In this document: positions 1 to 30,694 of the stretch, piece by piece | How the letters are laid out: every line of letters begins with the position of its first letter | How positions within the stretch are numbered: position 1 is the stretch's first letter | Assembly: GCA_947449315.1 (NCBI GenBank) | Contig: CANFRC010000016.1 | Span: forward strand, 1 to 42,776 | Reading direction: 5' to 3' | DNA from: Bacteroidota bacterium | GTDB taxonomy: Bacteria > Bacteroidota > Bacteroidia > 2-12-FULL-35-15 | DNA length: 42,776 nt | Notes under the pieces: generated by a model | The model's database searches: none | What the model saw: the letters and a program-made list of their open reading frames with translations, nothing else | What the model was told of the DNA's origin: nothing | Translations under genes and position numbers: made by a program

Positions 1-3000
1 AGTGCCCGTAACCGTGTATGATGTAGTAGTAGCAGGAGTGACAGAAATAGAGTTGGTAATAGCACCCGTGCTCCATGCATACGAAGCAGCACCTGCAGCG
101 GTCAACGTAGCCGAAGCACCCGCACAAATACTTGGCGAAGTAACTGTTGTAATTGGAGGTGGATCAACGGTAACAGTTGCCACAGCAGTACCTGTACACG
201 TGCCGGAAGTTCCAGTAACGGTATACGAAGTAGTTGTAGCAGGTGTAACATCTGCAGTAGTAATTCCTGTAGACGTAGCCCCTGCAGTCCAAGTATAGGT
301 AGAAGCTCCTGCAGCAGTTAAGGTAGCTGTGGCTCCCGCACAAATAGTAACAGAATTAACAGTAGGTACAACAGCAGCACTAAAAGTAACTGTTGCAATC
401 GCAGTAGACGAACAACCTAAAGAAGTCCCTGTAACCGTATACGATGTTGTTGTAGCAGGAGTAACCGTAATCGGATTGGTAAGATCGCCTGTGCTCCAAC
501 TGTAAGATGTAGCACCTGCCGCAGTAAGAGTGGCCGAAGCACCCGCACAAATAGTAGTTGAATTTACGGTTGTAACAGGAATAGGATTGACGGTAACCGT
601 AGACACCTCAGTAGACGTACAACCAAGCGTAGTGCCTGTAACCGTATATGATGTCGTAGTAGCAGGAGTAACACTAATCGGGTTGGTAATAGCACCCGTA
701 CTCCAACTGTAAGATGTTGCACCTGCCGCAGTAAGAGTAGCCGTTTCACCCGCACAAATACTTGGTGAATTCACCGTTGTAATTGGTGATGGATTAACGG
801 TAACCGTAGACACCGCAGTAGACGTACAACCTAGCGTAGTCCCTGTAACCGTATACGAAGTGGTAGTAGCAGGAGTAACCGTAATTGGATTGGTAATAGC
901 ACCCGTACTCCAACTGTAAGATGTAGCACCTGCACCGGTCAAGGTAGCCGAAGCACCCGCACAAATGGTTGGCGAATTCACCGTTGTAATTGGTGATGGA
1001 TTAACGGTAACGGTAGACACCGCAGTAGACGTACAACCAAGTGAATTACCAGTAACGGTATACGATGTCGTAGTAGCAGGAGTAACCGTAATCGGGTTGG
1101 TAATAGCACCCGTACTCCAGGTATACGAAGTAGCACCTGCAGCGGTCAAGGTAGCTGTTCCACCCGCACAAATGGTTGGTGAATTTACGGTTGTAACAGG
1201 AATTGGATTAACCGTAACCGTAGACACCGCAGTAGACGTACAACCTAAAGATGTCCCTGTAACCGTATAAGAAGTCGTAGTAGCAGGAGTAACCGTAATC
1301 GGGTTGGTAATCGCACCTGTACTCCAACTGTAAGATGTAGCACCTGCACCGGTCAAGGTAGCTGTTCCACCCGCACAAATGGTTGGCGAATTCACCGTTG
1401 TAATTGGTGATGGATTAACGGTAACCGTTGCAACCGCAGTAGACGTACAACCAAGCGAAGTCCCTGTAACCGTATACGAAGTGGTTGTAGCAGGAGTAAC
1501 CGTAATTGGATTGGTAATAGCACCCGTACTCCAACTGTAAGATGTAGCACCTGCACCAGTCAAGGTAGCCGAAGCACCCGCACAAATGGTTGGCGAATTC
1601 ACCGTAGTAATTGGTGATGGATTAACAGTAACGGTTGTTGCTGCAGTACATGTTGTTGCACCGGAAGTAACGGTTACTGTATACGTTCCGCTCATTGCAG
1701 TTGTTGCAGCTGGTCGGGTTGGGTTTTGTAAGTTGGAAGTAAAACCTCCCGGGCCCGCCCAGCTGTATGTTCCGCCTCCGGTTGCATTTAATTGAATGGT
1801 CGCTCCTGCACAATAAGGTCCTGTGTTGGTTGCTGTTGCTGTACATGAGGTGCAGGGAGCAGGTGAAGTGTATGGAATGGTGAGCGAACAGGTAGGGTCT
1901 GCCGAGAATGTAGCGGTGATTGTACAGGCTCCTCCTGTGGGGGTTAAGCCGGGGAGTGTATACGTAATAGGACTCGTCCAAGGAAGTGGAATTGTTGTAC
2001 TTCCACCACAGCTACTTGTTACGGTAAGTGTTCCTGATGTTGGAGGGTAGGATAAAGTTATTTGTCCTGTTACTGAATACGTATTTGTGGCAGGTGCACA
2101 AGCGGATGGAACACCTGTTAATCCCGTCATATTACAAAGAATGGCACAATTGGTTGATCCCGTACTTCCTGCACCAGTGGTAGCAGAAATGGTTCCTGGT
2201 GCATTCGCATAGTTGGTAACCATTAAAATATAAAAATCGCCGACAGCTGCTGAAGCGATGGTGCATGTTTCTGATGCCGAACTCGAGTAACTGCAATCTA
2301 CAGCGGCGCCAGTAAGTCCAGAAGCGCAACCTGCTGCAGGGGAGCTGAAGGGCCCCCAACAAATAAAATCAACATCCTGACCTGATCCTGAAGCGCTTGT
2401 TTGTGAGATATCAATATTAATAGTACCCGGTGTAGCTATTTCTAAGTAGAAGAAAGCTGGATTTGGTTCAGAACCTAAACAGCCATAATTTGGACCGACA
2501 GGAGCTGTGGCTCCTGTAGTAGCAGGGTATGTAACCCCCGTTGCTGTACAAAAAGGATTGGCTGTTGCGCATGTATTTGGTACTGGCGGTGGTGGTGGCG
2601 GTGGCGTGGTGCTACAGCTGATATTAGCTGCCCAACCAGCGTAAGTAACCGATCCGTCAGAAGTAAAAGAAAAAGTAATACAACCTCCTAATGTCGAAGT
2701 TACTGTTCCTGGACTTCCACTTCCGGTATAACTCCCTATTAAGGGTGACCCTGTTGAGGATCCGTTATATATATTTAAATGCTCATAAGTATTTTCTGTG
2801 GTAAAAGAAGTAAACGTAAAAGTGATATACTGTCCAGCAGGAGCACAGAAGGTCTCTGTAAGATTTTGATTGTTTAAATAATTCCCAGATGGCCCTCCAC
2901 TATCATAAAATATTCCTCCGCAGGCACCGCTGATTGTTCCGCCGTTTACCATATTGTAGCCTGTTTGGGCCGACAAAGAGCAGCTAATAAATAGAGTTGC

Positions 3001-27108: not shown

Positions 27109-28188
27109 GTGTTAGAGAAATTAGCAGCCATAAAAAGACGATGGGAAGAAGTTGAACAGAAACTTTCTGATCCAAAAGTAATTGGCGACATGAAAGAATT
27201 CAAAAAATTCAATAAAGAATATAAAGATCTTACTGCTGTTGTAAATGCGTATCATGAATATAAAAACGTAGTAGAGAACATTGAATTCAATAAGAGCGTT
27301 TTTGCCACTGAGAAAGATGAAGAAATGAAAGAGATGGCGAAATTAGATATGGACGAACTGATTCCTAAAAAGGAAAAAATGGAAGAAGACATTCGTCAGA
27401 TGCTGGTTCCGAAAGATCCTGAGGATGCCCGCAATGCAGTAATGGAGATTCGTGCAGGTACAGGAGGAGATGAAGCAAGTATTTTTGCAGGCGACCTTTT
27501 CAGGATGTATTGTCGTTATTTTGACGAGAAGGGACTAAAATACACCATCGTTGATTCGAATGATGGAACAATGGGTGGATATAAAGAAGTGATCATCAAT
27601 ATTAACTCCGATGGTGCATACGGCATGTTAAAGTTTGAAGCAGGTGTTCATCGTGTGCAACGTGTTCCTTTGACCGAAACGATGGGAAGGGTTCATACTT
27701 CAGCCGCAACTGTTTTGGTGATGCCTGAAGCCGATGAGGTGGATGTTGTTTTAAATCCCGGTGATATTGAAATGCAAACTTCACGATCTGGTGGTGCGGG
27801 TGGACAGAACGTGAATAAAGTGGAAACGAAAGTTCAGTTAACACACAAACCTACAGGCATTGTAGTTGTTTGTCAGCAAGATCGTTCGCAATTGGGGAAT
27901 CGTGAAATAGCAATGCAGATGTTGAGAACAAAATTGTACGATATTGAAATGACAAAACATTTGGATGCAATTTCTAAACGCAGAAAAACCATTGTAGCAA
28001 CAGGAGATCGTTCTGAAAAGATCCGTACCTATAATTATCCGCAAAACAGAATTACAGATCATCGCATCAACATGACTTTGTACAATCTGACGGATTTTAT
28101 GGATGGTAAGATTCAGAATATGATTGATGCGCTTCAATTAGCTGAAAATACAGAACGTTTGAAAGAGGGTGGTGTAGAAAGTAATTAA
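27109..28188 (+). CDS. prfA: Peptide chain release factor 1
   Basis: The 359-residue factor ends translation at UAA and UAG. The start codon is GTG. The codon-recognition tripeptide PLT (187-189, the PxT position in [15 protein letters not shown]) marks RF1 rather than RF2. The catalytic GGQ is at 231-233 ([14 protein letters not shown]), whose glutamine is normally methylated. The N-terminal coiled-coil domain (about 1-100) is present. It appears intact, which is relevant to the two in-frame TAA codons in this window, since RF1 would be expected to act at them. Confidence 0.97.
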
Positions 28189-28272: not shown

Positions 28273-29082
28273 ATGACAAGACAACAACTTTTCGAAAACA
28301 TAAAAAAGAAAAAAAGCTTCCTTTGTGTTGGCTTGGATACAGATCTGTCGAAGATTCCCAAACATTTGATGAAAGCGGAAGACCCTATTTTCGAATTCAA
28401 CAAACAAATCATCGATGCAACAAAGGATTATTGTGTTTCTTTTAAACCCAATATGGCTTTCTATGAATCTCTTGGTACATCAGGCTGGATTAGCTTAGAG
28501 AAAACAATCAACTACATCAATCAAACCTGTCCGGATATTTTCACGATTGCAGATGCAAAACGTGGCGATATAGGCAATACATCTAAAATGTATGCAAAAG
28601 CATTTTTAGAAAACCTGAATTTCGATTCGATCACCGTTGCTCCTTATATGGGAGAAGATAGTGTTACACCATTTTTAGAATACAAAAACAAATGGGTAAT
28701 TCTGTTAGCGTTGACTTCAAACAAAGGTGCTTTCGATTTTCAGACCACAAATAATTTGTATCAAAATGTTTTGGAAACTTCTAAAAAGTGGGGAACCCCG
28801 GATAATATGATGTATGTAGTGGGTGCAACCAAAGCAGAAATGCTTTCTGATATTCGAAAAGTAGTACCTGATAGTTTTTTGTTGGTTCCCGGTGTTGGCG
28901 CTCAAGGCGGAAGTTTAAGTGATGTTGCTAAATTTGGAATGAACAAACAGTGCGGTTTGTTAGTGAACTCATCACGTGGAATTATTTATGCAAGCGACGG
29001 AGCGGATTTTGCAGAAAAAGCAAAAGAGGAGGCAATGAAATTGCAAAAAGAAATGGAAATACTGTTAGATAATTATTTGTAA
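28273..29082 (+). CDS. pyrF: Orotidine 5'-phosphate decarboxylase
   Basis: The 269-residue enzyme makes UMP from OMP, the last step of pyrimidine synthesis. The catalytic motif DAKRGD (Asp94-Lys96-Asp99) is intact, and the order [23 protein letters not shown], and VPGVGAQGG fits the longer type 2 form of the enzyme. It lies 84 bp after prfA without a clear terminator between, so the two may be co-transcribed. Confidence 0.95.
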
Positions 29083-29161: not shown

Positions 29162-30433
29162 ATGTCCGAAGAATTCCTTCACCACATCTGGAAATTCAGA
29201 TTGTTTGATCAACTGGATCTGAAAACAACCTCAGGAGAGCACGTTGAAGTTGAAAAAGTTGGTACGCACAACTTAGATTCTGGCCCCGATTTTTTTAATG
29301 GTAAAATAAAAATTGGAAATACCTTATGGGCCGGTAATATCGAAGTGCACATCAACGCCAGCGATTGGAAAAAACATTTCCATCAGCACGATAAAGCCTA
29401 CGATAATATTATTTTGCATGTGGTACATAAGGCTGATGTTCCACTTTTTAGGGCTTCCGGAGAACTTATCCCTACTGTTGAAATAGGAAGCCGTATCGAA
29501 AAAAAATTGCATCAGAATTACCTGAATTTTAAAACAAGTAAGGATTGGATCCCTTGTGAAAAACAAATAGGCGATGTACCACCACTCATTATTAATAGTA
29601 CAATAGACAAATTAGTATTAGAACGACTAGAACGGAAATCAAAATCGATCACCGATTGTTTAGCATTGAATTTTAATAATTGGGAAGAAACATTTTACCA
29701 ATTACTTGCCCGCAATTTTGGATTTAAAACCAATTCAGATCCTTTTGAATTACTTGCCAAATCACTTTCTTCTAAAATTTTGGCTAAACATAAAAACAGT
29801 TTATTGCAAATAGAAGCGTTATTGTTCGGACAAGCAGGAATGCTTGACAAGCATTTTGAAGATAAATACCCGCAGTCGCTACAGAACGAATATGCTTTTC
29901 TGAAACAAAAGTATATCTTGAATGCATTGGATGAACATTTGTGGAAATTTTCAAGAATGCGTCCTGTGAATTTCCCTTCTGTTCGCATTGCGTAATTCGC
30001 CAACCTAGCCTTTAATTCTAGCCATTTGTTTTCCAAGATCATTGAAGCAGAAAAGTTTGAGAGTATAAAAATGTTGATGAATATAAATGTGTCCGATTAT
30101 TGGGAAACGCATTATGTTTTTGACAAATCATCAAAAAGAAAAATGAAACATTTGGGCGATGCGGCCATTCATAGTATATTGATCAATACAATCATCCCAT
30201 TTTTATTTGTTTATGGAAAACAAAAAAACGAGGAAAAATATATTGAAAAAGCATTGAATTTCTTAGAGGATATAGCAGGGGAAAGTAATTCAATCATAAC
30301 AAAATGGGAATCGCTGAACATGTCGGCTAAATCTTCATATTCAACACAAGCCCTTCTGCAACTGAAAAACGAGTATTGTAATCATAAAAAATGTTTAAGT
30401 TGTTCTATCGGCAATTATTTGCTGAAAAAATAG
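29162..30433 (+). pseudogene. DUF2851-family protein gene interrupted by an in-frame TAA
   Basis: The gene opens with MSEEFLHHIWKFRLFD and the family motifs VEVEKVGTHNLDSGPDFFNG and GNIEVHINASDW. It reads 277 codons to PVNFPSVRIA, then TAA at 29993-29995. The same frame goes on from FANLAFNSSHLFSKIIEAEK to CLSCSIGNYLLKK and the stop at 30431-30433. DUF2851 proteins are about 420 residues, and the whole reading here is 423 codons including the internal stop. The residue expected there is glutamine (RIAQ), so CAA to TAA is a single change. Function of the family is unknown. It could be a nonsense mutation, a sequence error or readthrough; a re-initiating 3' half at TTG 30026 is possible but unlikely. 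Confidence 0.88.
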
Positions 30434-30463
30434 TATTTTAGTACTCATAAAATGTACTTTCAG

Positions 30464-30694
30464 ATGATAAAAAAGATACAATCTTGGTTTGAAACACAAG
30501 CATTTGGTGTGTGTGAATGGTGGGGCAAAAAACTCGGAATCAATTCCACGAAAATACGTATGTATTTTATTTATTTGTCGTTTTTTACCGTTGGCTCACC
30601 GATCATCATTTATTTTGCGATGGCATTTGTTTTGGAAAATAAAAAATTTTTCAAACCATTTAAAACCAAACGCAGAAGTGTTTGGGATTTATAA
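30464..30694 (+). CDS. PspC-domain membrane protein
   Basis: It encodes 76 residues from ATG 30464 (MIKKIQSWFE); an in-frame ATG at 30452 adds four residues. The sequence has FGVCEWWGKKLGINSTKIRMYFIYLSFF, a PspC pattern with a membrane segment (about 38-58), then a basic tail (KTKRRS). PspC proteins are linked to envelope stress responses in enterobacteria; here the role is unknown. It follows the DUF2851 gene by 30 bp and precedes the channel gene by 24 bp, so the four genes 29162-32658 probably form an operon. Confidence 0.8.
   Translation: MIKKIQSWFETQAFGVCEWWGKKLGINSTKIRMYFIYLSFFTVGSPIIIYFAMAFVLENKKFFKPFKTKRRSVWDL

Follow-up and report, generated by a model that had tools for sequence, protein, structure and literature searches.

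A DUF2851 gene of a Bacteroidota genome interrupted by a single in-frame stop codon

When a single stop codon lies in frame within an otherwise well-preserved bacterial gene, does it mark a lost gene, an error of the assembled sequence, or an unusual way of producing a working protein? The question is raised by a DUF2851 (PF11013) gene that occupies positions 29162-30433 on the forward strand of the window, the whole stretch of 42,776 nucleotides analysed here. Translation of this frame gives 277 codons, an interrupting TAA and a further 145 in-frame codons up to a TAG at 30431-30433. The 375-position DUF2851 profile is matched at positions 1-275 by the 5' part (E 6e-114, 381 bits) and at positions 277-375 by the 3' part (E 7e-28, 98 bits); both parts exceed the curated cut-off of 25 bits, and together they cover positions 1-375 except that of the stop. 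As these matches adjoin each other on the profile, the pairing is not a chance one, and the full-length family architecture spans both parts. Unlike the other members checked, which have about 424 residues and are uninterrupted at this site, the present frame is cut at codon 278, and the locus is a broken gene of the family and not an intact member.

The original prediction of one DUF2851 gene, split by an in-frame TAA and of a total length fitting the family, is borne out by both the translation and the profile matches. Its division into 277 and 135 codons needs correction in the second number, which was counted from the TTG at 30026, and its statement that no plausible ATG start lies near the beginning of the 3' part can be made more precise, the first ATG being located 25 codons in. 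Under normal decoding the 3' part is untranslated. Coordinates are collected in Table 1.

Table 1. The interrupted DUF2851 gene and its conserved neighbours, in window coordinates
Feature	Coordinates	Strand	Remarks
prfA, release factor 1, conserved neighbour	27109..28188	+	RF1 intact
pyrF-like (OMP decarboxylase), conserved upstream neighbour	28273..29082	+	
5' part of DUF2851 gene, 277 codons	29162..29992	+	PD-(D/E)XK-like N-terminal domain (putative), C132, start of helical region
Premature in-frame TAA, codon 278, followed by T	29993..29995	+	Gln in 47/48 and Met in 1/48 relatives covering the site
3' part of DUF2851 gene, 145 codons and TAG	29996..30433	+	Remaining helical region; invariant C406, C411, C414
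TTG, codon 289, candidate re-initiation codon of the original prediction	30026..30028	+	Leu codon in the DUF2851 family
First in-frame ATG past the stop, codon 304	30071..30073	+	Met at codon 304 unconserved in relatives
PspC-domain gene, conserved downstream neighbour	30452..30694	+	

The gene is flanked upstream by purM, prfA and pyrF and downstream by PspC, a TrkA-type channel gene and RmlD. It is the orthologue of the DUF2851 genes of its relatives, because the order prfA-pyrF-DUF2851-PspC-TrkA is common to genus relatives and sister species and no other copy is present in the genome. No intact duplicate was found elsewhere: the assembly (2.6 Mb, 27 contigs, 99.8% complete) contains one DUF2851 gene. 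Within the class the family is near-universal, being found in 368 of 395 good genomes.

Comparison of the stop site relied on 49 fetched relatives, 48 of which cover it (L030 is cut off before the site); they are mostly environmental metagenome genomes, the closest being only about 75% identical to the genome of this gene. Codon 278 encodes glutamine (CAA or CAG) in 47 of them and methionine (ATG) in one, and is a stop in none. This pattern agrees with a single nonsense change at a glutamine codon, as had been proposed; the expected glutamine is confirmed, and the presumed CAA is joined by CAG and the single ATG. The suggested check against orthologues of sister genomes likewise found them uninterrupted here, and none of the DUF2851 copies inspected normally ends at this position, an outcome that had been named as contrary to the prediction. 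Among the matches listed from 296 genomes of the phylum and 396 of the class, no other copy has a stop at the place of codon 278, so the in-frame stop is missing from orthologues, as in a nonsense pseudogene.

Interruptions elsewhere in the family were sought in the same phylum and class matches, by reading those flagged with an inside stop together with some of odd coverage. A recurrent stop at codon 278 was rejected, since no flagged copy repeats it. In L162, L163, L168, L169 and L170 the flagged stop is simply where the gene naturally ends, and L165 has an in-frame deletion. In L167 (G285:C2:191500-196000) the sequence matching codon 231 is separated from that matching codon 232 by an in-frame insertion of about 100 residues. 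Two interrupted copies were found elsewhere in the class, both at other places than codon 278. One, L166 (G340:C1:44200-48800), has a frameshift near codon 376, with the remaining 3' part in another frame; the other, L164 (G170:C2:215000-219000), is a distant copy in a class genome of 2.0 Mb, in which TGA stands where the family has the codon of W314; this reflects either a nonsense mutation or the reading of TGA as tryptophan in that genome.

Downstream of the stop the gene shows no decay. The 3' part contains neither a frameshift nor a second stop; among the alignment columns that do not vary across the rest of the genus it differs in two, each time by a conservative change, and nearly all strongly conserved DUF2851 residues are kept besides the stopped glutamine, with one Ala to Ser change at 392. 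Its distance relative to that of the 5' part (ratio 1.25) lies within the range of the other genus members (1.13-1.52), and on a fixed tree the terminal branch measures 0.262 for the 3' part and 0.288 for the 5' part; neither the distance ratio nor the branch lengths give a sign of relaxed selection. This fits a very recent event. The neutral share of the terminal branch, which can be bounded only roughly because synonymous sites are saturated, would not exceed about a tenth. A 3' part without decay implies a stop that arose recently, varies within the population, is an error of the sequence, or is tolerated.

The likely explanation, in our view, is that the only chromosomal DUF2851 gene of this Bacteroidota species has acquired an ordinary nonsense mutation of recent date, or varies in this way among strains. 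Ribosomes would terminate at UAA-U and release a protein of 277 residues. In the AlphaFold2 model of L049, a relative with an intact gene (mean pLDDT 93.5, from a 39-row alignment), residue 278 lies within a helix (272-285) and not at a domain boundary. Truncation would remove the rest of the helical region and, with C406, C411 and C414, all but one of the four cysteines invariant in the family. Because the cut falls inside a predicted helix and these cysteines are lost, the product is probably non-functional. As the 3' part has had no time to decay, the gene would have been lost only lately in this lineage, or the broken form would be carried by just part of the population's strains. The locus resembles the single-nonsense pseudogenes and in-frame stop polymorphisms of Belinky et al. 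2021 (PMC7918605) in having one stop in an otherwise conserved gene, flanks still under constraint and a stop absent from relatives of other species, here seen in one genome. According to the same work, in-frame stops inside bacterial genes tend to last only at the scale of population polymorphism. Two considerations count against a nonsense loss: the near-universal presence of the family in the class leads one to expect a cost of losing it, and the undecayed 3' part would be equally expected under assembly error or tolerated readthrough.

The explanation ranked next, an unlikely one, is a consensus or assembly error in this metagenome-assembled contig, with living cells holding an intact gene. 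The undamaged and constrained state of the rest of the gene would suit it, as would the isolation of the event in the genome sample examined, which comprised the window and 400 kb from other contigs (443 kb in total, 17% of the genome). Scoring by codon usage lacked the power to find interrupted genes, the DUF2851 gene itself scoring near zero, and neighbouring open frames in the same frame were therefore listed instead and the doubtful ones checked with Pfam. The DUF2851 pair was the only one found in the 443 kb whose two frames belong to the same family. Four doubtful pairs turned out to be distinct genes or lacked a family match in the downstream frame; with the remaining pairs assessed by length and start codon only, no other gene interrupted in this manner was seen in the sample. 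Against an error stand the good quality of the assembly and the nature of the change, a substitution rather than an indel; substitution errors are rare at decent coverage.

It is improbable that the locus has become a two-part gene, in which the 277-residue fragment cooperates with a second, C-terminal one whose translation restarts at TTG 30026 or ATG 30071. The ATG sits in an A-rich context and the conserved residues of the 3' part are nearly all retained, but the break falls inside a helix and no inspected DUF2851 copy is split at codon 278. Nor does either codon look like an evolved start: the lack of conservation of Met304 argues against the ATG, and re-initiation at the TTG, offered in the original prediction, finds no support, codon 289 simply encoding the leucine of the family.

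It is equally improbable that ribosomes read through the UAA, as a programmed or a tolerated event, and yield some full-length protein. Purifying selection on the 3' part across most of the branch would agree with it, and frequent readthrough of in-frame stops in prokaryotes has been proposed (PMC7918605). However, UAA-U has been described as the strongest, most efficient termination signal in bacteria (PMC5289835), RF1 (encoded in the window) and RF2 are both present in the genome, and no relative shares the stop. A tRNA with anticodon TTA, CTA or TCA was not seen among the 29 tRNA genes found, an incomplete list in which a few species common in bacteria (Tyr, Ile and Ala-TGC) are also unseen. 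Neither a reassigned UAA nor a suppressor tRNA is supported by the release factors, these tRNAs or the 17% genome sample, and both were rejected; the signs of stop-codon recoding (a cognate tRNA, many in-frame stops, a missing release factor) were not seen there. An RNA structure promoting readthrough was also rejected, the RNA around the stop folding no better than shuffled sequences (z 0.37). The readthrough alternative of the original prediction finds no support. Less probable still is a stop that is both real and fixed, with a working DUF2851 protein that arises through regulated readthrough of the UAA or from two fragments, each with its own start.

One recent nonsense change, seen in just one genome, is of little importance except as a marker of strain variation or of beginning gene loss, and automatic annotation will report two short genes at this locus. 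Since Pfam lists DUF2851 as of unknown function, a more useful result, if confirmed, would be a PD-(D/E)XK-type domain combined with four invariant cysteines (C132, C406, C411 and C414) in a near-universal Bacteroidia family. The N-terminal domain (window 29162-29581) bears a weak but consistent likeness to PD-(D/E)XK nucleases. It contains an invariant GPDF motif with D43 and an E61-x-H63 motif, at or on core strands 44-51 and 54-65 of the predicted fold; compared with the catalytic D...(D/E)xK, D43 and E61-x-H63 are invariant and histidine replaces lysine. A separate model of the first 140 residues (pLDDT 91.5) gave no Foldseek match under E 0.001. A second fold comparison lists mainly PD-(D/E)XK enzymes, all at Z scores below the level the tool treats as trustworthy: EndoMS (5gkj; Z 4.7, rmsd 3.5, 92 residues), AvaII (4.3), a type III CRISPR nuclease (6sce; 4.1), Hjc (4.0) and Dna2 (3.6). 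This enrichment among matches to a predicted fold is suggestive only. The full-length fold search of the PDB returned nothing usable, PDB sequence searches gave no match, and the literature held a single incidental mention of DUF2851, the term PF11013 matching Plasmodium papers only. The four cysteines are reminiscent of Fe-S nucleases of the Cas4/AddB type.

At the left contig end, window positions 1-1632 form a tandem array of 7.8 copies of a 207-bp unit, probably part of a repetitive surface protein where the assembly broke.
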